Shown: in pieces, positions 2,091 to 41,020 of the stretch | Numbering within the stretch: position 1 is the stretch's first letter | Layout: each line of letters starts with the position of its first letter | Assembly (NCBI GenBank): GCA_022925895.1 | Contig: JAKSYS010000144.1 | Span: forward strand, 1 to 64,000 | Length of the DNA: 64,000 nt | From: Fragilaria crotonensis | Lineage: Eukaryota; Bacillariophyta; Fragilariophyceae; Fragilariales; Fragilariaceae | Direction of reading: 5' to 3' | The notes under the pieces: generated by a model | What the model was told of the DNA's origin: nothing | The model's database searches: none | What the model saw: the letters and a program-made list of their open reading frames with translations, nothing else | Made by a program: the position numbers and the translations under genes

Positions 2091-4429
2091 TTATACACCA
2101 GCCGGTTGACCACCCTTGCGAATGTCCGAGACGGCTGACATTTTCTGATGTATTCGGCTTCGAGACACCACTTGCACACATCCAGCATAGTTGATTGGGA
2201 CTAGAGAATGTCCTGTCGTTTCCAGTTCCAGCCGCGTACGGGTTGGAACTTCAATCACGTAATCCTCTTTTGAAACCAAGGTGGATTCAAACAGAGTCCA
2301 TGCTTTCGAATGGTACAACAGCTGGTCGTGCACGCGTGGACTTGTCACGGCGGCAAACAAATCCATCTTTTCGACAGCATGATTCAAAAACGTTTGCAAG
2401 GTGGCCGAGATAATCTTGGGCCCGCCGCTGGCACCCAATACCATGAAAAGGTCACCAAGTGATAGCGATTCGTCGAGGCCAGATTTTGCCTCAAAGATCA
2501 GTGTAGGAGACATGGACGACAATGGCTTTTTGCCGGGAGCAATAAAGTTGGACTCAGCAGGCTCAAGGCCGAAATAGTTGGGACGATCAGGAGTGGCAAA
2601 ATCGTCCATTTGACTGTTCAGTAAAATACCTGTTCTTCCACTTACTACCCCAGAGCCGAAGAAATTGTTGATTGAACTCGTCAAGGAAACAGCATTGCCC
2701 TTGTTGTCCATGATCGAAACATGACTGGTACCCTTGTCCTCCAGATATCCAAAATTCCGAAGGGATCTTCCATCACCGTCCTTGAGGCTCCATGTACCTG
2801 TCGAACTGGTTCCCTGACTCGCGGAATCATCTCTTATTTTGGCCCACTTCTCGCCACCGTACTTTGATAGCGGCAATGATGCATCCTTTCTTGTCATTTG
2901 TCGAAGACTCTCCATATAGCCATTGTAAACGAGATCCTTGACGGCAGCTTGAACGATATTGCCATTATATTTGGGATCACTTAGAGACATTCGAATCGCA
3001 AAAGCGTGTCTCATGGCTTCGACCAGCCGATGGTCCTTAAGAGAAGGACCGCCTAGGATGTTTTGTGCATCATCCTTGACGAAGCTGGAGAGGAAACGCG
3101 CCGCTCCTATTAGTGTGGCACCCCCTGAACTTGGAGGTGGAACCCCAACCATAGTATAGCCAAAGACGTCCTTGGCTATCAACGGCGAACGAAGAGTGGG
3201 GGCATATCTTGCCATGTCTTTTACCGTAAGGATGCCTCGGCTTAGTCGAACGTCATCGACAAATTGTTGGGTATGACTACCGTTGTACAAGGCCATTGCA
3301 CCCTCGATTTTGACGGACTCCAAAAACAAAGCCAGGGCCTCGTTCTTGATAATGTCACCTTCCTCCAAGCGCACCTCGCCCGATCCGTCTTTCGTAAGAA
3401 GTCTTCGAAGTTCCGAAAAGGCCCATCGTTCCGACGAATGCTTTGCGATCGCGTCCGCCAAAAAAGAAGACACTGGCACACCATTCCGTGCCAATTTTAT
3501 CGCAGGATTGACCACTTGGGCCCACGAGAGCTTTCCAAACATGGAATGTGCCACCTCAAGGCCGTATAATTCCCCCGGCACGGCGATTGCCAAACCCCCA
3601 GTTGTGGATGCAGTTTCGGACATGTTTGAAAACATGTCTCTGTGCGCTTTTATCGGTGCCACTTCGCGAGCGTCAATGACCAAAGTTACCTTTCCTGCGG
3701 CATCCACTGTTACGTTACGGCGGGCGTCACGAAAGAAGGGAACAAAACGGGAATTGACTTTTCCATCTTTAGCATCCTTGTCAATATGAATAACCATGAA
3801 CATGCCACCGCCAATACCTGATGATGCTGGATTGCAAACTCCTAAACAAAGAGCAACCGCAACGGCAGCATCAACGACATTGCCGTTATCAACGTTCATT
3901 ATATGATGGCCTAAATCGGAGCAAACGGAATGATCCGAAGCCACGGCGCCGCGCTCCAAATTCTCGACTGCGTGAAAATGTGAGTGCAGCCATTCGCTTT
4001 CCATGAATCGCCGAGCCTTGGCATTGCCTTTTACGTACCTGTCGACCATGACTTTAATCTCTCCCTTTTCAAATCATCGGTTGCATCGGATGCATCATTG
4101 AGTGTATTGAATCCAGGGCCCATCCGTATCAGTTCCACAGAAGTGACAACTATGGAAACAACCAACGCGATCGACAGCAGAAGCATGCACTGCCGTCGTT
4201 GCCAGAGACCCATTTGCTGCACATGCTGGCTAACAACAACTCTCTGGGGAATCTCTTCCCCCTCCATTCGAAAGGTCTCTACATCAGGTGTCGCTCCGGT
4301 GAAGGACTCCCTGAAGTCGTCATGTTCCTGGAAGTCCCGAGATATCGGATACGCGCACAAGCTATCCTCGTCATCAAAATCAAGCAGTTCGGAAATTGGC
4401 CGATTCTTGATTGCTCCGCCACTTTTCAT
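2091..4429 (-). CDS. gamma-glutamyltransferase, membrane-anchored, copy 1
   Basis: Hydrolyses or transfers the gamma-glutamyl group of glutathione and related peptides, normally outside the cell or in vacuoles. Two exons: 4429-4039 and 3967-2091, giving 755 residues. The 71 bp intron (3968-4038) starts GTACGT and ends CACGCAG and keeps phase 1. Residues 1-80 are an acidic cytosolic tail, 81-101 a single membrane helix, so it is a type II membrane protein. The Ntn-hydrolase domain begins at GAVASDH; the self-processing and catalytic threonine is about Thr544 in GTSHVSIMD, followed by the conserved GNAVSLTSSINNFFG block, and SSGGAT lies upstream. All key motifs are intact. A paralogue lies 6 kb downstream on the same strand. 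Divergently transcribed from the carrier-like gene at 5705. Confidence 0.93.
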
Positions 4430-5252
4430 GGCGGGCGATGGTTGCTATTATAAAGGCACAGATTGTCACAACGATGCAGGGGCTCGTTGGTGTAACCGCA
4501 ATCGGCGTAAGCACTTCGTCTGCCTTATTCGTCTCTCGCTACGGAGTGCGACAAGGTCGTCGGACCGACTGCTTCCCCTGTCTTATCGAAGTATAGCTGC
4601 AGTGTATTTGAGAGTGAAGAATGTGCGAGGCATCGGCATTTCAAGGAGGTTCACGCTTTCTATCAAAAAGACATACTGCCAGCTCTGCGCAGTGCACGAG
4701 AACAGGGGTCCAGTACTCGTTGTACGGAATACCGTTAGTCATTTGTCATGACAAAATGCCTATATGAGTATGACCAAATTGCCTGACAAAAGCAGCAATG
4801 TACGAGTATACGGTATACCGGTATACCCCACGACCACTCCCCAGCCGACTCCGGACTCCGGAGTGGTACTACCGCAGGTGCTGCTACTCCTCCGTACTTG
4901 TACCCTTCTAATCGGTGGATCATGAGAAACGCACCGGGCATTTTCTGACGTTGAAAGCTGTGTCCTCCTTTGCTGTATTTCATATTTCATACCCATGTAT
5001 AGTACACATGCTACTAGTCACCAGTACTCGAGTACCGGGTCCGGTTCAGGCTAAGGCTACCGGTGTACACTATCAATTCACGATTCACAATGGTATGTAC
5101 GTAAGTAGTACTCCAGTACCAGTAAAGTACAAGTACTCACCAAAAAGCCCTATACTGGTACCCGGCTTGAGTACTGTCATACATATTTTTTTCGCATGAT
5201 CTGTTGACAACAACGACTTGATACTCGGAGTAATTCCTTGCGTCATGTCTCA

Positions 5253-5260
5253 TGACGTCA
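5253..5260. promoter_or_regulatory. CRE-like palindrome TGACGTCA
   Basis: Perfect TGACGTCA inside ATGACGTCAT, 445 bp upstream of the carrier-like gene. This is the classic bZIP (CREB/ATF) site; in diatoms related TGACGT elements are known in CO2/cAMP-responsive promoters. Function here is inferred from the motif only. Confidence 0.4.
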
Positions 5261-5398
5261 TGCGTCGCCAGAAACCATGAATATGATAGGGGCGACACTA
5301 CTGCAAATCCTGAAACTTCGTGTTTGTCTGTGTCGTCACGAACACGAACCTCCCACCACCACAAATTCATGATAGGTGGACATCAACTCTAGATTCTA

Positions 5399-5448
5399 GA
5401 AAGTACACTGGTGTACTTTCACCCTGCACACGTGATCACATGATCACG
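5399..5448. promoter_or_regulatory. two adjacent inverted repeats with a CACGTG box
   Basis: 5399-5408 and 5411-5420 form a perfect 10 bp inverted repeat (arms GAAAGTACAC) with a 2 bp spacer. 5431-5438 and 5441-5448 form a perfect 8 bp inverted repeat (arms CGTGATCA), also with a 2 bp spacer. CACGTG, an E/G-box, lies at 5429-5434. The cluster is about 260-305 bp upstream of the carrier-like ATG, a plausible position for paired dimer-binding sites. No factor can be named. Confidence 0.4.
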
Positions 5449-5704
5449 AGTCATTAACCTCTCACCATCCTGTAGTTCACTTCAACTCGCATACATTATC
5501 AGCTCTCACTTTTTGCTCCTGCTTCTGCTTTGTCTGCTATCTTTTACTGCTCTCATAATAGAACACTCTTCAATTCGAATTCGATCGATTCCCGCATCTC
5601 GAGTTTGAAATTGCAATCCGAACTCTGAACTTGACACAACTGTCAACTCTCGCTTCTCGACCGCGCTTCGCTTTTCTTGTTCCCAGATTCTCTAGTCACA
5701 AGCC

Positions 5705-6841
5705 ATGTCGCCAGGCAAGAGCCACAAGGATGGAAGCATTCAACGGAGGAGTACTGCGATACAAGCCTCCACCATGGGCCTTCCCGAGGCTGTGGTCGAG
5801 TCGGCGTTGGTCACCTATCGATCGGTTGGCATCGGGGTGTTTGGCGTGATTATGCGCTTTAGTGGCATGCCACTCGAGAAAATTGCTCTTTTTATGAATT
5901 CAAGCCAAGTATCGGGGCCCAATCCAATGAGACAATCCCTTCGTCTTACCTTCGCCGAAGGACCTCTTGCACCTTTTCGGGTCGTCGGCCCGGCATCGCT
6001 GGTGGCCTGGTTCTTACAATACTCTATCATGGGGTTTGCATTTCAGTTCTTTGACCACAGTCTCAGTAACCTCTTGGACGTCAAACCCGTGTATTATGGT
6101 CACGAACTCATGACCCCGCCTGACGACGACGACGTCAGCACCACGCCTGCCGAATGGTTCAAGTCATCATTTGCTAGAATCCTTTCACCGGCACTGGCAG
6201 CTGCTCTCGAATCCAAGGTCTCCAACCGTGCCGAAGTTCAGCGATACTTCGGTCCCGGTCAACTGGCAAAGGTGGAATCTCAATTGGGGTGGGGTGCGAT
6301 GCGGCGGGCTGCGGGTCCTGCCTTTCTGCCCAATTTCATGAGAAACTTCATCATGTGTCAAACTACTTTCTTGTTGACGCCCATTACCTACAAGCTATAC
6401 TTTCCCCAAGAGCAGAAGAGCAAAACGACGCTATTTTGGTACGGTCTGAGCATGAACATTTTCGTCGGCAACGTCTTTGCCATTACACAACAGGCATTGT
6501 GGGGGCGTACCTTGGATTATGCCTCACAACACGGCAAAATCGTGTACACCAACATTGTTCGGGAGGGTTTTCGAGCTGACGGAGTGGGCGCCTTTTTCAC
6601 TGGCCCCAAGTGGTTCTCTCGAGTCATGATGAACGCGCCAGCGCAGGGCGTCCTCCCTTGGTTTTACAATGAGGTCTTGCCCCTCGGGGAGCGGTCCGTC
6701 CTCCGGGCTGTGAAATATGTCGTGTACGAGCCTATTGAGAAGGAATACCGCCAAGTTAAGCACAACGAACAAAGGTTGAAGCCTCTCCATCAAACCCGAA
6801 TGACGGAGGTGACACTGGCGAAATCGCCGTCGACTCGGTGA
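5705..6841 (+). CDS. mitochondrial-carrier-like membrane protein
   Basis: 378 residues, single uninterrupted frame from the ATG at 5705. The second half (about residues 200-330) has the look of mitochondrial carrier (SLC25) repeats: a helix around FMRNFIMCQTTFLLTPITYK, then IVREGFRADGVGAFFTGPKW, which resembles the loop and start of a carrier repeat, and a final PAQGVLPWFYNEVLP helix. The canonical PxD/ExxK/R signatures are poorly kept, so it is a divergent member or only a fold relative. An acidic loop (PPDDDDVST) sits near residue 140. If truly SLC25 it acts in the mitochondrial inner membrane; the substrate is unknown. Expression is plausibly driven from the 5.25-5.45 kb palindrome region. 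Confidence 0.55.
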   Translation: MSPGKSHKDGSIQRRSTAIQASTMGLPEAVVESALVTYRSVGIGVFGVIMRFSGMPLEKIALFMNSSQVSGPNPMRQSLRLTFAEGPLAPFRVVGPASLVAWFLQYSIMGFAFQFFDHSLSNLLDVKPVYYGHELMTPPDDDDVSTTPAEWFKSSFARILSPALAAALESKVSNRAEVQRYFGPGQLAKVESQLGWGAMRRAAGPAFLPNFMRNFIMCQTTFLLTPITYKLYFPQEQKSKTTLFWYGLSMNIFVGNVFAITQQALWGRTLDYASQHGKIVYTNIVREGFRADGVGAFFTGPKWFSRVMMNAPAQGVLPWFYNEVLPLGERSVLRAVKYVVYEPIEKEYRQVKHNEQRLKPLHQTRMTEVTLAKSPSTR

Positions 6842-26296: not shown

Positions 26297-27025
26297 CTAC
26301 AATTTCTCTCCCCTCAGAAAGCCTCCCTTCCCATCTGCCTTGTCGACACGAATCAATTTGATGTTGAACAAAAGGGTGCGGTCCAAACGTGGATTTTCTA
26401 ACACAAAATTGAGAGCCCTCTGGCCTGAAAATGTCGCAGGTTTTGGACCGACAACTTCGTGCAACAGGTCACGGGGCGGATACGAGAGGTTCTTTTCAAA
26501 TGGAACCACGACTTGCCGAACGCCTCCAGGCTTCATGGTCAGGAGGGCCTCTTCGACCGCCTGGATCATGGCGCCGGATCCTATAATCGTGCGACTGAAG
26601 TCCAAATCTTTATCAAAGGCTCCACCAACAGGACCACCCTTGGCTTGAAAGGGACGTCCAAAGTAACCAATGGTATATCCCGACCAATCAAATACAACGC
26701 GATCCCCTTTGGCGGGGGTTACTGTCCCCGAACCGGTCGACACATCGCGATACCTCCATCCCGACGGTGTTTCGATGAAATCTTCGTATTCTTGAACGAA
26801 TTTTGGTGTTGCAATGGGTTCAGCGCGGGCCAGAGAAGGGAAGAGGAAGGAAGCAAAAAACGTGGTTCCAAGGAGAGCTCTCCTAGTTTTGTCACCATTA
26901 CTTTTAGTAGCACAAGCCTGGTGCGATTCCGTTGTAGAGGTCGCCGTCGAAATGGAACTGGGAACAATCTGACTGAACCCATGGCATAACGACACGAAAA
27001 GTGAAAAGTGCAATAAGAGATGCAT
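26297..27025 (-). CDS. FKBP-type peptidyl-prolyl isomerase of the thylakoid lumen
   Basis: 242 residues in one exon. Residues 1-16 form a signal peptide ending SLCHG before FSQIVP (plastid Phe step); residues 17-45 are a Ser/Thr-rich transit part. A second targeting signal has twin arginines at 48-49 (KTRRALLG), a hydrophobic core and an ARA cleavage site before EP at about 68, the mark of Tat-dependent import into the thylakoid lumen. The mature part has the FKBP fold with DRVVFDWSGYTI, IIGSGAMIQAVEEALLTMKP and GGVRQVVVP, as in plant lumenal FKBPs. Expected to help fold or assemble photosynthetic lumen proteins. ATG at 27025. Confidence 0.88.
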   Translation of the reverse strand: MHLLLHFSLFVSLCHGFSQIVPSSISTATSTTESHQACATKSNGDKTRRALLGTTFFASFLFPSLARAEPIATPKFVQEYEDFIETPSGWRYRDVSTGSGTVTPAKGDRVVFDWSGYTIGYFGRPFQAKGGPVGGAFDKDLDFSRTIIGSGAMIQAVEEALLTMKPGGVRQVVVPFEKNLSYPPRDLLHEVVGPKPATFSGQRALNFVLENPRLDRTLLFNIKLIRVDKADGKGGFLRGEKL

Positions 27026-27489
27026 TACTGTGTATGGCTAGTCCAGGATGAAGATGGAGTTGTCCTGTTGCCTACTGAGCCGAGTGCCTTTTCTGAGGTA
27101 GAACTGTTGTAAAGATGATCGAAACGATATGATCGCATCGCAACGATATCATCGCATCACCAACATCCAGCATCCGCTCACAGGCCACACATCACCTACG
27201 TACTCAATTTCTTCGAATCGTACAGTACTACTGTGGCGAGTACGCAACCACTGCGGTAGTAGCAGTACAAGTTACTGCTGTACCAGAGTCGAAGTACTGG
27301 CTACAAGTACATAAGCACCACACTTCTTGCGGCTACTGATACCGACTACTGACTCCTGCTTGCTGCTGTACATAGTGCCATACAATCGGTGGTATTGTAG
27401 GGCAAGTGTGCAAGTACTTACAGTACTTGCTTTACTTCTGCGGCGCCTACTTGTACCGTAAACCATAACTCCCGACTACGCGGAGTACT
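27026..27489. other. intergenic, GTAC-rich; ends in the Copia target duplication
   Basis: Promoter side of the FKBP gene. GTAC palindromes are frequent from 27195 to 27490 (agtact, gtac, cagtac). Bases 27485-27489 are GTACT, one copy of the Copia target-site duplication. No gene recognised. Confidence 0.6.
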
Positions 27490-27527
27490 TGTCACTACGT
27501 ATGAAGTTAATCAATAAGAGCAGCTTA
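27490..27527 (-). repeat. Copia LTR, left copy, outer part
   Basis: First 38 bases of the 138 bp LTR (starting TGTCACTACG on the plus strand), cut off at the TTA used as target by the nested transposons. The rest continues at 35795. Confidence 0.92.
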
Positions 27528-30500
27528 GCCCCAGACACAAAATTTTAAGGACAAAAAAGAGGACAAAATTTGGCGATACTCGCTAACTTCCTATTTCTGA
27601 AACAATGAGAAACGAAGGCGTACAGTTTGTTCGTGAAGGCATAAGCTTCCTAAATCTGTCCCGCTTTTGTTGTTCGGGCCAAAATTGATGGAGTTACGGT
27701 GATTGCAAAACGAGGTAGTTTTCGCTGTGGAATAGCAACTTTTGTCCTACCCAGATCTCGGCATAAGGACAAATTCCACAAAAAATCCTCGTGCAAAATT
27801 CAATTTCTAATTTTTCACATGTTGAATTCTCTTGTTAAACCTATCGTCCAACATGACCATGGGCGCTTTCTCTGAATTTAGCGGCTACCCCACTGTTTTT
27901 CATAGCTGACAACTCTGTCTTGTCCATCTTAATGGTACAGTAATCACGCTAGTTGATAATCGCCTTCGAATTGCAGGACGTTCACTTCCTTCATTGTCGT
28001 CATCACCGGTGAATGCATCGTCGCTTTCTTCAGGCACCTCGACATCCACCTGCTGGGCTGAGTAGTAGTCTTCGTCATCCTGCTGTGACTGGGAGTCATT
28101 ATGCTGATCAGCAGCAACGCTTGCACCAACAGCAGGTGGCAACAGGTCACCAACAGGTGCAGCATCTGGATCAGCACGAACCGCCTGATCCGGATCTGCA
28201 TCTGGATCATCACCCACAGCAGGGTGACGAGGTGGCAAAGGATGCCGGTTGCTGTGCCCGCGCACTGTAACATTCAGTTGCTGTGCCTGAACACAGCAGG
28301 GGTCGAATAATTCGTGAGAGGTGTGAAAAAGTTCAAAGCAACTGAGATCGTTGTACCTCCTGACTTTGCACAGTGCGACTTCACAAACGGCACAGTACCA
28401 TGTCGTCTTCCTTCCGTGTCTGCTGTGTTGCCCTCCTCTGGAGTGATCCAATCGACAGCACCAAACACAACTTGATTGTCTCCGCACCGAACAAGGATAG
28501 TGAACAATTCTTCGGTTCATTCGCTTAGCAATAAGCTCTGGCATCGAGAAGTAGGCGTCGCGTTTATTGTAGGCAATCGACACCATTTCTGAAGCGTTGT
28601 TCCTTGTCTGTCTCGTCCGTTGCGTTTCGACTTCACCATCGTCATCACTTGTTCCGGGCATCACGACGACTTCATCATCTTCGTCGCTGCTGCTCGATTG
28701 GTACATAATTGGGGGCACAACGTCAACTCGCAGATCATCCGCAAGCATGTGGCAAAATTGACGAAAAGGAGGTAGTCGTGCACGTGTTTTCTGGAACTCT
28801 TTGAAGGACCGGCATTCTGCACTGGCAAGGAAAGCTGCTGTTCGGCTTAGGTTGAACGAATGATATGCATTATACACCGTCGACATTACTAAGCGCAACC
28901 AAATGGCGCCAATCGGTCCAAGATGCGCATGGATGGACTTGGTGTTTTTCTGAAAGCGGCTGTAGACATCGATTGGTCCCTTTCCCCTGTTCCATGTTGC
29001 TACCACCTCGGGTAGAAGATGTCTTCCTGCAGGAAGCGGACGCCCTCGCTCCAAAATCATTCTCGACATTTCTTTCCAAAGGCACAGTGTTGTATGTACA
29101 CTGTGCCTATCAACAGCATGGGACCCTGCTTCAATTTCCAGCGTTGCTGGGAGAATTCCATCAACAACCCAACCAAGATGTTGGCGCCCCAAATCGCCGA
29201 TTGCCGACAGGTACTGCTGTCGGATTAAGTTGGTCACCCGAACATGAACAACTCTGATGATTTTTCTTAGTGACGCCACGACATACAAAGCATCATCCAA
29301 AGACCCTGAAGCCATTCCATGCAGTAGTTGACATCGATACGATGCATCTGGGATGGACCTGTGGAAAGACAGTGGATCCCGCTCTGCCTCAATTTCTTGG
29401 TATTCCCCATACAGTCTTGCCAATTCCACCTCTGCAGACAATGTGGCGTCGGAACACTTCGACTTCATTTCCACCAAAGCGACAAAGTGCTGCCTCCCTC
29501 CAGGCGATTCGAGGGTAACTCCAGCTATTGCGTCGGGCGAGAATGCAGCGTTGTTGTCATCCTTATGGCACAGCAGACCAAACTCGTGCAGACTCTCAAT
29601 GTCAACCCGACGACCAAGTACCGTTGTTGCCTCTGCACTTTTCTGTAACACAAAGGCCGGTAGGTTAGCAAAAATGAACGGTTCATTGAGGGTACCTTCG
29701 CGACAAGCCTTTGACTTAAATGGAGGCATGAACCATGACTTGAAAAGTACGCTCAAGATCGTTGGCTGCGCTGGTGTTGCGCGTTGTTCCCGAGGCAGCC
29801 ACGACAGAATTCTTTGAATTAGAGTTGCCTTCGTTCCAGAAACTGGGAGACTTTTTCCTCGGCAAATGATTCGGAGTTCAGGCAGAGTCCTTGGTTGTAA
29901 CATTTCTATTCCATAAGACTCGTCATCTACTTCAACTGGCAGCTCTCGTTCGTTACTTCTTTGTAAGCCAAGAATATTTATCACGGCATCCTCGTTTTCA
30001 TCGAGTCCAATGCTTCTGGAACTAAGCATCTTCCACACACTGTAGGCACCAGTTCCGGTGATGCAAAACTTTCTCAAGAGGAACCATTCGGGTGTTCTTT
30101 GTGTCTCGGTCAGAATTCTGACCGAGGAAGTTATGTATGGAATAACAATGTCGCTTGGATTGACGTACCGAATCCTAGAACACTCCCCATTTCGGGTGAT
30201 GAGGGTATATCGACCCGGGCCTATGTTTGGATCAGTTGTGTGCATGAGCACAACACGACCCAACCCACTCCTGTTGGCTAGGGCATATTGCTTCTGTTGT
30301 CCAGTACCCTTTACAGCCCAATACGCAGCCATGGTTCCCTTCTCAGTGATGAGACGACGTGTTCGGCCGGGATTTTGGTCGAAAGTAAATGGGAACGACT
30401 TCATGCGTTGAGACGTGCCAACAAGCACAGCACCTTTCCCAATCGCGAACGTGTTGACCGCGCCTTCGATGCCACCGTATCCTCGGTCCCAAAAGAACTT

Positions 30501-32080
30501 CGTTCTATTCAAACGAATCTGGGACTCAATGGAAGCGCCAGACAGCGAGAGAAGAAGGATCTTGACGCAATCAATGGTGGACTCGTTGCGAGCTGCAACA
30601 TGTCCCCCACAGTACAAGGAGGTGCAATTCGACACAGCACCGTGGTGGATGACACCCAAACCCTTGTTTGGGTTGTTGATTTGGGAGTAACCCTCCAGGA
30701 CCACCTTTCTTGATCGAAGACGCAGGAGATCGTCGTCAAGGCCAACGTCAGTCGTACCGGGTATAAATGCGAGTTCGGAACAAATTCGACGAACCAGTGC
30801 CATGGCAGTTGCCAACTCCCTGTTGTGGGTCATGGGTGGCTGCCATACTCCGGTTGTTGCAGCGTATTTGGATGCATAACCACATAAAACTGACGTGGTC
30901 CGAACATTGCTGTTGGCGTTCAGGCATTGCAGTATCTGTTGGTACCTTGCAAGGGTCATGCCAATAGCCTTTGCCGAAGGGAAGTTTGACGTGTTGTCTT
31001 CATGAAAGTACATTTTAGGTGACACCTAAAGATGAGGCGGAGCAAAGGAGTTAGAAGGATGATGAACAACAAGACAAGAAGAGCAAGAGAGGTTCAATGT
31101 TGTAGTAGCGTGATGTGATCCTCGTACCTTATAAAACGAAAGCATCAATTCTACGCGAATGAAAGACAGTATTTCGGCGCTTGTGACAGGATTGCTACTA
31201 CTCATGTTGTTGTTGATGAATGCCTTCATGTATCCCAGGAGATGGGGATCCATAAATGCCTTCAGAAAATCACCTGGCGGAACCTTACTCATGTCGCGAT
31301 GACGCTTACCAAAGAGCTTTCTTTTGATCTTGTCCAGGACCGCCGGAACCTCTTCGCGAGCTCTAGCAAGCAAGCGATGGTCCACACCATCAATAGAGAT
31401 GACAACATTGGGAGCTAGTGCATCACCAATGAGATACGTCCAGCCATGACTTGCATCGCTCCCATTCCTCTGTTGCAACAGTGTTGGAAAGTCTTCGTTG
31501 TCAGCATCACTTTCATCCTCCTTGTCGTTGTCGTTGTCACTAACGTATGCGCTTAATTCAAAAAGGGAATCCATCATGTTGTCGTCAACATCGCCCCCAA
31601 CTCCACCAAGATCATCATTGTCATCGTTACACTCTTCCTCATCCTCCATTGTGCTCCCACCATACAAATTTCTGATCAATTGTATGGACGGATATGAAGA
31701 ACAAGTCGTGATACGTTTTTTTGTGTCGTGTTTATCGCTAAAAATTGACACGACGAGGATGCAATCCAACTGGAAGAACGTTGGGACCCGTGTGTGTTCG
31801 TCAAATCCCGTTTGCTCCTGCATCAACCCTGGTACCCCGGAGGTACTATTGGTGCATTCAGGGCAATCCGTGACATACAGCGACTAAGCTCGTAGCATTC
31901 AGGCGGTGAGATCGATGTTAACAAGGTACTTGCCGTGTTAAATTTCATCAACCCGTGGTTATAAGGTTACTTTTTGTCCTCTCAAATTCGATGCTGGCTT
32001 TTTGAGAGGACAAAAGTTGAATCGTGTTTTCAATCTTTTTTTGCTTTGTGTCCTACCGGAGAGGACAGAAATGTCTGGGG
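27528..32080 (-). mobile_element. piggyBac-like DNA transposon carrying a SAP/YqaJ nuclease module
   Basis: Nested in the Copia LTR. Ends read CCCCAGACA inward on both sides (27529-27537 and complement 32072-32080), flanked by TTAG on the left and TTA(G) on the right when the adjacent Harbinger element is removed, so the duplication is TTAG or TTA with one asymmetric end base. CCC-starting termini and a TTA-type 4 bp target recall piggyBac (TTAA). Subterminal DNA has several GAGGACAAAA-like motifs on both sides, probable transposase sites. One spliced gene fills the element. Confidence 0.85.
27900..31649 (-). CDS. piggyBac-like transposase with SAP and YqaJ nuclease domains inserted in its DDE core
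   Basis: Exons 31649-31128 and 31025-27900, about 1215 residues; the 102 bp intron (31026-31127, GTACGA..CTTTAG, phase 0) joins LMLSFYK to VSPKMYFHED. After an acidic tail (1-60) comes a piggyBac core: first acidic cluster GLDDD near 271-273, second Asp near 354 in FFWDRGYGG, and RVVLMHTTD. Then, where piggyBac would go on directly, lies a YqaJ/lambda-exonuclease-like module (about 486-800: WFLLRKFCITGTGAYSVW; Glu622; SPD with Asp672; VEMK with Glu693 and Lys695) containing a SAP DNA-binding motif (554-586). The piggyBac core resumes at NRGKGPIDVYSRF (third Asp near 860) and STVYNAYHSF. A cysteine/histidine cross-brace zinc finger (about 1027-1078) matches the piggyBac C-terminus. The second exon is unbroken. 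Residue roles are inferred from motifs. Confidence 0.85.
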
Positions 32081-32468
32081 TTAGAGCATCCCCACTCCCC
32101 ACCGCTGGAGCGAAATCTGAGATATGACCCGATAGGACCATTTGCGTCGACAATTTTGTCCAAAATGCATGGCACCGCTTGGGCTCGATACCTCAGATTT
32201 CGCGCCCGAGGGGCTCGAAATCTGAATTGGGGCTCGAGAATAGAACCAAATTGCTGAATTCTCGAGCCGGGTCCAGATTCTCGCGCCCCTCGTTTTGTCC
32301 TATTCGACCCATTCGAATAAAAAATTAACCAATAGAATGTTATCACGGACGCTGTTTGAAGAGACCGTGACTGATGTCATTTTGCCCGTGATCGGAATGT
32401 ATCATGTATCATGTATGAACATTCTCATGTATCATGTATAATAACAATAGAATTTTGACTTCCAAAAA

Positions 32469-33886
32469 ATGAACTTCTTTGACGACGACGACGACGACGA
32501 TGACATCATGGAGTTCCTCATCCATGAGGAGGACGATGACTTCACCGAAGCTCTGGTTATTATCGCCGACAATCTTGAGGACGATACCGACGAGGATGAC
32601 GATGACATTCCTTTTGTTCCCCCATTTGTTTGGGGTAGTGGTTCTCGTGTTGGAAAGGCTCCCAACATTGAACGTCGTCGTGTTTTTTACTCACACCTCC
32701 TTTTCAATGATTTTTGGGGTCCTACTCCCATTTACAACGCCACATACTTCAAGAAGTTCTTCAAGATGCCAATTGCATTGTTTGACGACATCGTGGCAAA
32801 AGTGACTGCAAACGACGACTACTTCCGACAGAAGACGGATGCTGTGGGTAAGATGGGACTGTCATCGCTTCAGAAGATCTGCTCAGCTGTCCGTCAGCTC
32901 ACATCTGGTGTCAGTTCCGCAGAACACGATGACAAGTATCGTATGGCTGCATCAACAGGGTTGGAAGCCTGCAAACGCTTCTGTCATTCAGTCATTGAAG
33001 TGTATGGTGACGACGCGCTCCGTCACCCAAATGCTATTGACATCGGACGACTGCTTGATGAGGGTTGCGCTGCTGGCTTTCCCGGATGTATAGGCTCAAT
33101 TGATTGCATGCATTGGGAGTGGAAGAACTGTCCTTCCGGTTGGAAAGGCATGTTTCAAGGAAAGTCAGGCGTCCCGACAGTTGTTTTGGAGGCAATCGCT
33201 GATAACCGATGTCGTTTTGGCATTTCAACTTTGGATCTGCAGGGGCATTGAATGATCTCAACATCTTGGACCGCTCTCCCTTGTTTGACAATGCCGTTCG
33301 CGGTGAATCTCCTTCTGTTCATTTTGTTGTGAATGGGAATGCCTATCAGTACGCATATTGGCTTGGTGACGGAATCTATCCTCGCTATGCTTGCTTTGTG
33401 AAAACGTTTGCAAAACCCCAGACTCGGATGCAAAAAATGTTTGCATCGGCGCAGGAGGCAAAGAGGAAGGACATTGAGCGAGCGTTTGGAATGCTCCAAG
33501 CAAGATTTCATATCCTGACCTCAGCTTGTCGTCTTTGGGAACGTCATGCGATGAAGACAGTCATCAAGACATGTGTGATTCTTCACAATCTTGTGATTGA
33601 CTTCGAGCGCCAGAACGGAATCGATTCTGACTACATTAACAATGAAATGTACATCCCGCAGCATCCATTTGTTGTCATTCCTAGAGAGGGAGGACAAACT
33701 TGTGATACGAGATCCCAAATGATCTCGGCAATGCAGAACTCGGAACTTCACACTCGTCTTCAACACGATTTGATGATCGACAGGTGGGAAAAATGGTACG
33801 CAAACAACAATGATGACGATGACGAAGAAGAAGCTCACGACGACGACGAAGCTCACGAAGAGAACGAAAACGAAAACGAATTGTAG
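32469..33886 (+). CDS. Harbinger-type DDE transposase (DDE_Tnp_4), frame broken once
   Basis: Begins with an acidic low-complexity stretch after the ATG at 32469. Catalytic motifs are in order: GSIDCMHWEWKNCP (first Asp), ALNDLNILDRSPLF (second Asp) and KDIERAFGMLQARF (Glu). The frame changes near 33215-33218 (TTTT); adding one T gives the contiguous NRCRFWHFNFGSAGALND expected of the family. An acidic Glu/Asp-rich tail ends the protein. With the frame restored it is about 473 residues and has a full catalytic triad, so the element may be active apart from the apparent sequence error. Confidence 0.85.
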
Positions 33887-34040
33887 AACAAAAACGAATA
33901 GTAGTATGACAATAACCAGCACGGCAAGTATAAGTTTGTTGACGATGCACGACGACGACATTGTTGTTTCAATCTCCTAGTATTAGAAGTAGTAGCAGTA
34001 GCGGTAGAAGTTGTCGTGTATTATCTTACTAGTACTATTG

Positions 34041-35527
34041 TTAGGCGTTGTCAAGTGCAGTCCACTGCGTTTCCTCCTCTTCCATCGCCTCAACCTTAAC
34101 TTTGACCATCAATGGAATTGGAGCATCGTTTTCCTTTTCGTCGTCAGAAAAATCAGATCCACGAAGCATCGTTAAGTCGATGACGGGCGGCGTATTCTTC
34201 TCCAGCCACTTGCGTGCATTAAAGTACGTTTCATCCTCGTAATCGTCGTCATCATCGTCATCCTTTTCCTCTTTGTCGTTGTCGTTGTCGTTCATTGACG
34301 TGGCTGCCGCTGCGTCAAGAAGACACCCAACAAGCTTCTGCGTGTCAGGCAAAAGTCCGAAATCCTCTGGCTCGTCATCATCTGGCTCGTCATCATCGTC
34401 GTTGTTGAAGCTAACAGGAACGTCCTCGTCGGGCTTCGTAATGACGACAGCAGAAACCTCCCTAGCAGCACCAGCATAGTACTCCGCGGACTTTGCGGCA
34501 AAAAAGCGAGTGAAGCAACAGATTGCGGATTGGCCAAGAAGAGTTGCATCATCAACTGCTCTTTAGCAATTCCGTTTTTGGCTTCTACAGCCAAAGCCAT
34601 ACGCATTCCAACTTGGTTTTTGGTTTCCGCCGCCGATGCCAAACGTTCAAGCGAAACCTTGTTCGAATCAAAACGGGCGGATGGTAACTGTACCTTCAGC
34701 CTTTTGTTAGCAGAAGCAGCCTGCTGCTGTGCAATGACTTTCGCTTTCTTCTTTCCAATTGAAGGGCGAGGTGTCATGGAAAGGTCAGCATGAAGAACAG
34801 CACGACGAAAACCAGAATTTGCCGCACTTGTCCTTGCATCATCGTCAGGAGCGTCGTCGTCAGCGGCAGACATAGCAGGTTCTGCTTCAACGATGTTGCT
34901 CTTGTCAACAAGAACATTTGGATTTTCGTCGTTGCTATCAACAGATGAATTCAACAAAGCAGTTATGTTAGCAACAGGGAACAGTGCAGCAACACGAATG
35001 GCATCACGTTCCATAGCACGTTCGTTGTCGTTGTCGAGGAGGGCCAATGCCCGAGCCACTCTGGGATGGATAGTTTCAAGTGAGATTTCATACTTAGGCA
35101 ATGTCCTCTTGAGTATATCATACACAATGTTGTGTTTAAACATCTTTCCCTGCTTGGTCTGAAACTCAGCCTTCGCCTTTGTTGCGTAGTCAATCATGGA
35201 CCAACCACTGTGGAATTCACGAAGAGCGGAGTGAAGATAGCCAACATACTTGTTCACTTCAGCCTGCAACACTTTGTTGAACCGATTCTTCAATGAGAGA
35301 AGAGTACGGGTTGCCAATCCTCCGCCCTTGATAAAACTGTCACGAATCTTCTTCCAATACGTCTCGCCATCTTGATCAGTACCGATTGCCGCATTCGTCG
35401 TGACGAAAACATACGCAGAAGCCAACTTCATGTCTTCATCAATCTTGAAGTTACCAGTTGAACGACCAACAGTGGAGCGAATGCTGGCTCGGTTTGTACC
35501 CTGGTTGTCCGCATTGGCATCTTCCAT
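34041..35527 (-). CDS. Harbinger accessory protein, Myb/SANT (trihelix)-like, frame broken once
   Basis: ATG at 35527. Residues 20-150 (GNFKIDEDMKLASAYVFV, YWKKIRDSF, TLLSLKNRFNKV, FKHNIVYDILKRTLPKY) follow the trihelix/NAM-associated pattern of the second protein of PIF/Harbinger elements, which binds DNA and helps the transposase enter the nucleus. The frame shifts at the A6 run 34500-34505; one extra base gives a continuous acidic C-terminus ending at 34041. About 495 residues when joined. Convergent with the transposase gene. Confidence 0.72.
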
Positions 35528-35791
35528 GGTGGATGAAGTTAAAAGAAGTGACAAGGAGGTGAGGATCAATCGGCAAAACACTCGTTGACACCAGACGACA
35601 ATACTCGAGACTACACACAAAATTCAAAGCGGAGTCTAATTTACGGCGCGCGCCAGTATTAATTGCTGGAGAATTTGAAAAAAATCTGCACGCGGTGCGA
35701 GAAAGATACCACCAAAATGTCCAAAATAGGTTTCTAAAGGCTCGAGACCAATATGTCCGATTCAGATTTCGCTCCAGCGGTGGGGATGCTC

Positions 35792-37642
35792 TTAGTAGAT
35801 TAATGAGATGAGTGGTGAGTGCGAGTCTAGAGTCTCGCAACGTGACGTCATCTGTGGATCGGGGAACCCGGAAGTAATACTGTAGGGAGAAACACACCCT
35901 CGCACAGGAGGCGGCACGACGTGAGCGGCAAGAGCACGCTGAAGATACTGATATCGCATGAGTTTGTGATGGGCAGGTGGGTGGTGTTTGGAAAAATAAT
36001 CGGCGCTGTTGGTTTTGCCGGGACGCCAGTAGAGATTGAATTGCTTCTGGGAAATGCGATCTTTGAGCCAATGATAGCGCATGTCAAAGGCCTTGGATTT
36101 TTTCATGCGAACTTGAGCGTGTAGGATACCGTGAGCAGTGGCATTATCGGTTTCAAGAGGAGTACCGTTAGGAGGCTGTGGATGACCCATTTCAGCAAGA
36201 GCAGTACGCATAGGAACGGCTTCTTGAGCGTTGAGGAAAAGACTGCCGGTTTCAGCTTCGGAGGCAGAGGCAGCAACAGTGCGGATGGTCTTGCATAGAA
36301 CATGGACGGCACCATTGAGCTTGGGGTTTGGAGGAGAGCTGGTAGCACTGGGAAGGTCGGTAAGGAAGAAATGGCCGGCGGCACCACTGCGAGCGTTGGG
36401 AAGGACAAGATATGCAGCATCGGAACAGACAGCGAGGATCATATCGCTGGCGTGGTAGCGAATCGTAGCATCGGGATGCGTAGACAGGTAATCAAGAAGC
36501 ATATCACAGGCTTTGCTGGTGTGCTCGGTGGGAGCGGCTTGACTGTTGGAAATTTCATTCAACGCGACAATGATGGTGGGATCGCAACCGCGGGAGTAAT
36601 AGAGAAAGAGACCGGAGATTTGTTGCACACGTTTGATACCAAGCTTGTCTAGAAGAGGGGAGATGTCCGAGTTCGCAAGTTGAACTTTCTGACCGTACAC
36701 GGGGGCGGTCCAGCGATGTGGGGAATGCTGAGGTCGGGGGGGAGACGGATGACGCAAGGTGAGAAGCGCTTTAGGGACGTAGCCCGGCATGGAGATATCG
36801 ACGTGTCCGGCAGAGTAGTCCCAGTTGATCTTGAAGCCGAGATAACTGGAACCAGTCCAGTCTTTGGTGAGGGCATACTTGGTTGCGAGGGCAGCAAAGA
36901 GATGATCAGCATCAGATTGAGAGAAGAATTTAATGCCGAAGTCATCAACGGCGAGAGTGAACGTGGTGCGACGATCGGTGTGGCGCCAGAGGCCAGGAGT
37001 GTGCGCGACAGGGAAGTAACCGTAAGGGGCGAGGTGTGCAGTGAGTTGATCGTACGCAAGAATGGCAGCTTCTTTGAGGCCGTACATACCCTTGCGGATT
37101 TCGACGTAGATATAACCCTTGGAGTCAAAGTGCGCATCGGTGAGGTTGTACTCGGCAATGACTTCGGCCGTGAGATAACGGCGGTGAATGCGCATGTATT
37201 GGAAAATGGGCATATCCGACACGAGGAAAAAATCTTTCAAGTCGCCGGTGCAATAGCGGGCGCCAAGGTGAGCATCGGAAATGACACTATTGAGATGAAG
37301 CTTTGTGTCGACGAGACCAATGGCCGGAGAACGAACATCTTGGTAAGCATCGAGACGGTCGCCACCGACAGTCATGCGAATGCGATAGGGCTCGGCTTTG
37401 CCAGGTCGCATGGTGCAGACGAAGTTGGCGTAGGTGACCTTGCGACCGGGCGGGATCTGATGGGGATAAATGAAGACCATGGTGTTGTTGCCGAGGATTT
37501 GGTCGTCACGGGAGCGGGATTTGGTGAGGCCTTGAGTGCAGCGTCCCCATTCGTTGGAAAGAGAAGTGGACCAGAGGAGGGAATCAGGTCCGCGAAGGAG
37601 AGAGTCAATGTTCTCGGGCTTGCCAGTGGTAGGATTGTACAT
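35792..37642 (-). CDS. Copia reverse transcriptase and RNase H
   Basis: Reverse transcriptase with RYCTGDLKDFFL (motif A region), GMYGLKEAAILAYD and LAVDDFGIKF, where the usual YVDD box reads AVDD; a connection region; then RNase H with CSDAAYL, ASASEAETGSLFLNAQEAV and ETDNATAHG, and the tail SADYFSKHHPP. It joins the integrase frame at 37642-37645: one more A in the AAAA (minus strand) gives GKMYNPTTGK without a gap. The AVDD form should be checked, since Tyr is near-invariant in active elements. The stop codon lies in the LTR, at the TTA where the nested transposons inserted. Confidence 0.88.
   Translation of the reverse strand: MYNPTTGKPENIDSLLRGPDSLLWSTSLSNEWGRCTQGLTKSRSRDDQILGNNTMVFIYPHQIPPGRKVTYANFVCTMRPGKAEPYRIRMTVGGDRLDAYQDVRSPAIGLVDTKLHLNSVISDAHLGARYCTGDLKDFFLVSDMPIFQYMRIHRRYLTAEVIAEYNLTDAHFDSKGYIYVEIRKGMYGLKEAAILAYDQLTAHLAPYGYFPVAHTPGLWRHTDRRTTFTLAVDDFGIKFFSQSDADHLFAALATKYALTKDWTGSSYLGFKINWDYSAGHVDISMPGYVPKALLTLRHPSPPRPQHSPHRWTAPVYGQKVQLANSDISPLLDKLGIKRVQQISGLFLYYSRGCDPTIIVALNEISNSQAAPTEHTSKACDMLLDYLSTHPDATIRYHASDMILAVCSDAAYLVLPNARSGAAGHFFLTDLPSATSSPPNPKLNGAVHVLCKTIRTVAASASEAETGSLFLNAQEAVPMRTALAEMGHPQPPNGTPLETDNATAHGILHAQVRMKKSKAFDMRYHWLKDRISQKQFNLYWRPGKTNSADYFSKHHPPAHHKLMRYQYLQRALAAHVVPPPVRGCVSPYSITSGFPDPQMTSRCETLDSHSPLISLIY
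35795..35894 (-). repeat. Copia LTR, left copy, inner part
   Basis: Remaining 100 bases of the left LTR, ending GGGAGAAACA. Contains a perfect TGACGTCA at 35843-35850. Differs from the right LTR at two bases. Confidence 0.92.
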
Positions 37643-40882: not shown

Positions 40883-41020
40883 TGTCACTACGTATGAAGT
40901 TAATCAATAAGAGCAGCTTAGTAGATTAATGAGATGAGTGGTGAGTGCGAGTCTAGAGTCTCGCAACGTGACGTCATCTGTGGATCGGGGAGCCCGGAAG
41001 TACTACTGTAGGGAGAAACA
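40883..41020 (-). repeat. Copia LTR, right copy (5' LTR)
   Basis: Complete 138 bp LTR with TG..CA ends, followed by the GTACT duplication at 41021-41025. It contains the TTAG that served as target in the left copy, and a TGACGTCA at 40969-40976. The primer-binding site should start at 40882 on the minus strand (CAGCTTAGTGATC); I could not assign it to a tRNA. Confidence 0.93.
40969..40976. promoter_or_regulatory. CRE-like TGACGTCA in the Copia 5' LTR
   Basis: Perfect 8 bp bZIP-type palindrome, also kept in the left LTR (35843-35850). Its place in the promoter-bearing LTR suggests the element's transcription responds to a bZIP signal. Inferred from motif. Confidence 0.42.

Follow-up and report, generated by a model that had tools for sequence, protein, structure and literature searches.

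What would a nuclease do inside the catalytic region of a transposase, and can a transposon that carries such an arrangement still move? The question is raised by a gene in a 64,000-nucleotide stretch of the diatom Fragilaria crotonensis (assembly GCA_022925895.1, contig JAKSYS010000144.1, positions 1 to 64,000; hereafter, the window), which a sequence-only reading had described as a piggyBac-like transposase interrupted by a SAP motif and a YqaJ-type nuclease. The gene lies in a mobile element with many relatives in the same genome, and its product has a doubly nested order: the SAP motif is inside a YqaJ-type nuclease, which is itself inside the DDD (three-aspartate) region, between the second and third catalytic Asp. 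We consider the element to be probably a transposon of the piggyBac superfamily, whose doubly nested SAP-YqaJ insert would resect the donor flanks after excision and thereby promote copying repair and a net gain of copies.

A nuclease and a SAP motif nested between catalytic aspartates

The gene is the sole sizeable one of its element and is laid out as follows (aa, amino acids).

31649-27903, minus strand: two-exon gene, intact; 1215 aa after splicing, no internal stop
31128..31649, minus: exon 1, aa 1-174, with an acidic N-terminus and the start of the piggyBac N-terminal domain
31026..31127, minus: intron, GT-AG, 102 nt
27903..31025, minus: exon 2, aa 175-1215
30915..31334 (span including the intron), minus: piggyBac N-terminal homology (start of PF13843), ~aa 106-211
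30735..30737, minus: putative first catalytic Asp, D271 in GLDDD
30486..30488, minus: second catalytic Asp, D354, with a GT motif at +23
29958..30098, minus: YqaJ N-terminal part (W488, R492, T497, T499), ~aa 484-530
29796..29888, minus: SAP motif (PF02037), aa 554-584, within the YqaJ domain
29178..29750, minus: YqaJ catalytic part (E622, D672, E693, K695, Q740), ~aa 600-790
28956..29012, minus: third catalytic Asp motif, P846..WNRGKGPID860, aa 846-864
28290..28502, minus: C-terminal Cys/His-rich domain, ~aa 1016-1086, recognized by Cys/His columns and by PF13842 in some family members

That this is one spliced, unbroken gene, as first proposed, is borne out by the relatives. Proteins of groups B and C are ~43-51% identical to those of group A in the better copies, and the sequence across the splice junction (...ELMLSFYR VSPSLYF... 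or VLPSLYF) runs on without an intron in all 10 group B/C copies examined (L018-L022, L025-L027, L061, L062). A GT-AG intron of different sequence stands at the window's junction in five group A relatives (L010, L013, L014, L016, L017), and a donor pattern search at the junction found none in four more group A copies (L009, L011, L012, L015).

The SAP motif is matched in the window copy by PF02037 above its cut-off (E 5e-7) and in four of five alignment members, the fifth being a fragment without the SAP region; it separates the W..R part of the nuclease from the first catalytic Glu, so the split of the nuclease by SAP stands as first read. For the nuclease itself, a profile of the insert (aa 476-840, 19 rows) aligned over the whole domain with a profile of phage lambda exonuclease (lambda Exo) and 11 other phage nucleases, with a score of 62.4 and 95% probability; the maximum among 60 column shuffles was 24.6, and with the SAP region omitted the score was 73.5. 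Three control comparisons remained within the shuffles (N flank versus YqaJ, 12.9; C flank versus YqaJ, 11.0; insert versus piggyBac, 17.5). Residues W24, R28, E85, D119, E129, K131, and Q157 of lambda Exo align with W488, R492, E622, D672, E693, K695, and Q740, and these are widely kept across copies, both the catalytic ones (E622 in 19/22, D672 in 22/24, E693 in 20/22, K695 in 19/22) and the others (Q740 in 23/24, W488 and R492 in 20/22 each). The NCBIfam model TIGR03033 reached E 0.012 in just one of three sequences, and in the PDB the insert profile came closest to the SAP domain of SIZ1 (E 0.009). By profile comparison, the insert is a strong candidate for a YqaJ/lambda-exonuclease-like PD-(D/E)xK nuclease.

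As described in the available text of PMC7351741, piggyBac has its insertion domain (372-433) between the second and third Asp, where it breaks up the RNase H fold and lines the DNA channel. In the window protein these two aspartates are 506 residues apart, and a stretch of ~95 residues that starts at the GT motif (377) and reaches ~475 still occupies the insertion-domain place, with the SAP-YqaJ segment (~480-800) coming after them and ahead of the third-Asp motif. The proposal that the nuclease has become the insertion domain is refined accordingly: the native domain has not been replaced.

A mobile family assigned to the piggyBac superfamily

Searching the genome by protein (62.1 Mb, 881 contigs) yielded 64 matches that group into at least 28 places, including the window, a lower bound because 44 of 104 candidates were scored. 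The 27 further places have the same domain order, on many contigs (L009 is one open 999-aa exon), which disposes of the possibility, raised at the outset, that two separate genes had been joined by chance here. We retrieved 20 loci whole and 5 in part, and in none of the 25 relatives compared is the N flank joined straight to the C flank; the middle region is partly or wholly missing in L015, L016, and L024. At the DNA level the copies form groups of L009/L012 (97%) with L011; L010/L013/L014/L017 (98-99%, ~4.4 kb); L018/L020/L022/L025/L026/L027/L061 (98-99%, ~4.0 kb); and L019/L021/L062 (96%). A group B query adds places on C65, C437, C340, C202, and C106 and a second place on C261, and C361 holds a relative of the window copy with an internal deletion.

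The element and its target site in the window are delimited as follows.

27529..32080, minus: whole element, 4552 bp, ends CCCCAGACA...TGTCTGGGG, with subterminal repeats of GGACAAAA type
27525..27528: target-site duplication TTAG, left copy
32081..32084: TTAG adjoining the right end, made up of TTA and the first base of a Harbinger insert
40883..41020, plus: empty site, the target without an insertion (3' copy of a putative long terminal repeat [LTR]); its one TTAG is at 40918-40921

The span given earlier, 27900..31649, thus covers the gene, and the mobile unit is larger. Both outer flanks of the element come from a single 138-bp repeat that has a second, unbroken copy at 40883-41020 (...AGCAGC TTAG TAGATT...): the 39 bases left of the element are identical to it, and the original right flank, which resumes past the Harbinger insert, again with TTAG, at 35792-35795, matches it at 98% over 103 bases from 35792. 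Since the unbroken copy within the same window has a single TTAG, the 4-bp target duplication of the element is shown. The repeat occurs in the window in three pieces (27490-27528, 35792-35894, 40883-41020) and has LTR-like TG...CA ends; these are probably the LTRs of a retrotransposon, with its 5' LTR as the target of the piggyBac-type insertion. The stretch from 35792 has relatives on C175, C554, C50, and C460.

The family as a whole is mobile and makes TTAA-like 4-bp duplications. Perfect duplications flank 14 of the 21 loci at which both ends were compared, 8 of 14 in a first set (window, L009-L013, L015, L017, L018, L020, L022, L024-L026) and 6 of 7 in a further set, C156 with its variant ends among the 6; they read TTAG/CTAA (5), TTAT/ATAA (5), TTAA (3), and ATAG (1), with TA central in all. 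The seven loci without one are L009, L010, L012, L013, L017, L020, and C327; left out of the count were L014 and L027 (contig end), L016, L023, and L028 (one end seen), and L019 and L021 (ends not displayed). The window element ends in CCCC..GGGG, similar ends occur in relatives and in short derivatives, and CCCC.. termini are found in the loci with recognizable ends (neither end of L009 nor the left end of C327 is recognizable). Three derivatives (C131, C197, C284) have both ends ~1.1 kb apart and perfect duplications; this length cannot accommodate the gene, and mobilization in trans is therefore probable. The window element is probably an autonomous DNA transposon of the piggyBac superfamily.

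Four predictive lines of evidence lead us to place the family in that superfamily: its termini, its TTAA-like duplications, motif spacing that agrees with published values, and Pfam matches to relatives. PF13843 matches above its cut-off at 10 group B/C places, in the N-terminal part alone (profile ~1-99 of 349, E 2e-6), comparison of family residues 100-235 with the genome's ordinary piggyBacs gives a score of 41.9 (at most 22.4 after shuffling), and the PF13842 zinc finger is found in three of seven C-terminal domains (best E 2.5e-4). The earlier claims of piggyBac sequence on both sides of the insert and of a C-terminal zinc finger hold to this extent, for relatives; in the window copy itself, PF13843 reaches only E 0.2 in exon 2 with no match in exon 1, and the C-terminal domain is unmatched.

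For the core, the accessible text of PMC2533014 places G369 of the GTVRxNKRxIP motif 23 residues past D346, and here G377 likewise stands at +23 from D354. Likewise, P846, W852, N853, and G857 precede D860 by 14, 8, 7, and 3 residues, the distances at which P433, Y439, N440, and G444 precede D447 in piggyBac (PMC2533014 and PMC7351741, in the text available). The three Asp are kept in 23/23 (D271), 20/22 (D354), and 18/22 copies (D860; three Asn, one Gln). The first Asp, which the sequence-only reading had left unplaced, is most likely D271 in GLDDD, the predicted counterpart of piggyBac D268; its next residue is Asp, versus Glu in piggyBac, where the conserved region starts at P261 (PMC2533014, same text). 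A candidate explanation in which the first Asp was lost and YqaJ took over catalysis was dropped, since PMC2533014 puts D268 in a DE motif and D271 is its counterpart. A domesticated host gene was rejected as a poor fit to the ends, the duplications, and the many copies.

Several side observations concern the wider set of elements. Places at C327 (~287506-288423) and C156 (~4078-6128) have the element's subterminal sequence in common with it and variant ends (CCCCGGTCG...), the latter with a perfect TTAG duplication, and are possibly a sister family. On C651 (10505-10550 and 12330-12385; L080, L079), a AAACACCTGTCTTCT stretch is present in both flanks beyond the TTAA duplication, a longer direct repeat than expected. 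In group B, L018, L022, and L027 (98-99% identical) have in common a frame break near query residue 128 that is not in L020 or L025, and broken copies may, from this, have been amplified in trans. The genome also has numerous ordinary piggyBac-like transposases that lack the insert (e.g., L029-L033, L046-L049), in at least two distant groups; PF13843 has 84 genome matches, fragments and 10 members of the nuclease-bearing family included. Relatives of the window protein were found in no phages, viral contigs, or prokaryote genomes, collections poor in eukaryotes that have little bearing on its spread. The ordinary piggyBac L033 has one relative in viral contigs and L029 none; that relative is encoded on L066 (IMGVR_UViG_3300049043_000356), a contig filed as viral, and is 66% identical to L033 in the best segment; it could be a virus-borne transposon or come from contaminating host DNA. 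PADLOC and PHROGs searches gave nothing useful.

Near the element in the window, a PIF/Harbinger-type element (32084-35791, TTA duplication) is inserted in the right target duplication; both its ends are GAGCATCCCCAC, the pieces of its transposase (32451-33886) give Plant_tran matches of E 1.6e-20 and 7.9e-53, and its 443-aa open reading frame (ORF) at 35623-34295 has no Pfam match. On the other side, a gene for an FKBP-type peptidyl-prolyl isomerase (26300-27037, minus; PF00254, E 1.2e-7) lies ~490 bases away.

The proposed role of the nuclease and its rivals

Selection speaks to whether the nuclease matters to the element. When the window copy, L009, and L013 are compared with one another, nonsynonymous change per site amounts to 0.18-0.22 in YqaJ 600-790 and 0.22-0.25 in the insert as a whole. 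The values for the N part and the C core are 0.15-0.19 and 0.15-0.20, and synonymous differences in N part, insert, and C core are near saturation (0.62-0.90). Constraint is looser in the SAP region, at 0.32-0.36, and in the C-terminal domain, at 0.26-0.47. The window copy differs from L025 by 0.37-0.39, alike across N part, insert, and C core, and within a group, for L009/L011, the ratio of nonsynonymous to synonymous change in YqaJ 600-790 is 0.19. Between groups, purifying selection on the nuclease is nearly as strong as on the transposase core. The nuclease, retained through the element's evolution, probably helps the element move. Purifying selection on Glu622, Asp672, Glu693, and Lys695 in particular had been named earlier as something to look for; these residues are indeed kept (19/22 to 22/24) in a domain constrained between groups, with looser constraint between L021 and L025.

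Excision of the piggyBac type leaves donor flanks with 5'-phosphorylated 4-nt overhangs, and enzymes of the lambda Exo type start at 5'-phosphate ends by way of R28. Its match R492 is kept in 20/22 copies, so the nearest plausible substrate would be the donor flank in the same complex. In the mechanism that we favor, the DDD domain would carry out cut and paste, the SAP motif would keep the nuclease on DNA, and the nuclease would, once the element is excised, degrade the 5'-phosphorylated ends of the donor flanks. At an empty site resected in this way, seamless rejoining would become rarer, and repair would more often copy a homologue or sister in which the element is still present, leaving net copies. 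A more far-reaching version, in which built-in 5'-end resection abolishes seamless TTAA rejoining and forces copying repair, so that a DNA transposon is turned into a copy-gaining element, we advance tentatively and regard as doubtful. If it were true, lambda-exonuclease-type nucleases would have been recruited separately by piggyBac, Kolobok, and ISL2EU, perhaps to the same end.

Certain results weigh against the reading of a piggyBac-type transposase with a working YqaJ nuclease. PF09588, the Pfam model for YqaJ, has no match in the window copy, in four relatives, or in the genome, so that the claim of a YqaJ domain in the middle is carried by the profile comparison. The catalytic core has no significant similarity to the genome's ordinary piggyBacs (nothing above shuffles in hhalign against 4 and 9 proteins or in a second profile alignment), and its assignment consequently rests on the published motif spacing. 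PDB searches with exon 2, either flank, or the ordinary piggyBac L029 found no transposase, and a single-sequence structure model of exon 2 is uninformative (mean predicted local distance difference test score, 32). The C-terminal domain is loose (0.46-0.47) in two of three group A pairs, and L021 and L025, both broken, differ by 0.42 in YqaJ 600-790 versus 0.16-0.24 in the core, the nuclease being the less constrained; both kinds of looseness may partly reflect misalignment of broken copies. Within groups, the ratio of nonsynonymous to synonymous differences (dN/dS) is mostly 0.3-1.0, several pairs having frame-shifted stretches, which indicates that most copies are decaying.

An alternative that we consider somewhat unlikely has the nested nuclease working in the transposition reaction itself, on hairpin ends or on the target, rather than on donor flanks. 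It would fit the location of the nuclease where piggyBac has its insertion domain, a part of the protein that lines the DNA channel (PMC7351741, in the text at hand). Duplications that are TTAA-like yet not strictly TTAA would also suit it. However, ordinary piggyBac resolves its own hairpins by the DDD site alone, and lambda Exo-type enzymes require free 5'-phosphate ends. Still less likely is that the insert serves merely as a DNA-binding or structural module with its nuclease chemistry unused: a SAP motif would bind DNA by itself, and catalytic residues are lost in single copies (e.g., E693K in L012), but these residues are kept, under purifying selection, across groups that are only ~43-51% identical.

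We think it very improbable that the element is instead a Kolobok (KolobokE) or ISL2EU transposon, although these also encode lambda-exonuclease/YqaJ nucleases, Kolobok likewise makes TTAA duplications, with the same kind of nuclease in KolobokE (PMC9587614, in the part available), and the core here has no significant profile match to piggyBac. Against it, the termini read 5'-CC..GG-3' rather than 5'-RR..YY-3', and the 26 rows, of which some are incomplete, have no C/DxxH in aa 355-480 or 801-860. Relatives have matches to PF13843 and PF13842, and the nuclease sits inside the transposase instead of following it or having an ORF of its own. We give almost no credence to the idea of a chance fusion, an assembly error, or a misread gene model: the lack of profile similarity between the core and the genome's ordinary piggyBacs would be in keeping with it, but the order recurs in relatives on many contigs, including the open exon of L009, the splice junction is conserved, and the insert is constrained. 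The relatives refute chance fusion.

Comparison with known transposons and nucleases

piggyBac is a leading genome-engineering transposase because it is scarless, and a conserved nuclease inside the catalytic region of a piggyBac relative raises the question of donor-site fate; whether transposons steer repair so as to gain copies could be tested with this one protein. The arrangement suggests, too, that a DDE transposase can accommodate an entire second enzyme, with a third domain inside it, at its insertion-domain position, in elements that were still able to move. No piggyBac with a nested nuclease was found in the literature searched, a scope outside which lie most subscription journals, bioRxiv, and Repbase, so that an earlier mention is possible.

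With the piggyBac superfamily (Trichoplusia ni piggyBac and the genome's ordinary piggyBac-like elements), the family has in common the N-terminal PF13843 homology and C-terminal zinc finger (in relatives), the D/D/D motif spacing, the CC..GG termini, and the 4-bp TTAA-like duplications. It departs from them in the distance between the second and third Asp (101 residues in piggyBac, D346-D447, and 126 in ordinary L033, versus 506 here), in the nested SAP-YqaJ segment, and in having TTAG, TTAT, and ATAG duplications besides TTAA.

The closest known systems are KolobokE and ISL2EU, which belong to other superfamilies and have the nuclease downstream or separate. KolobokE is likewise a eukaryotic transposon of a TTAA-duplicating superfamily with a lambda-exonuclease-like PD-D/ExK nuclease, but it has 5'-RR termini, a C/DxxH signature between the second and third catalytic residue, and, as far as the available text of PMC9587614 describes it, a nuclease that is not nested. 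ISL2EU, of the PHIS superfamily, also encodes a YqaJ exonuclease domain; according to the portion of PMC4482050 available, this is in a separate ORF and of unknown function, alongside a DDE transposase with helix-turn-helix and THAP domains, whereas here there is one continuous protein. Among the nucleases themselves, the comparison is with phage lambda exonuclease and the YqaJ recombinases: all seven lambda residues, from W24 to Q157, find a match here, but lambda exonuclease is a stand-alone phage enzyme, and its counterpart in this family is nested in a transposase and split by a SAP motif.

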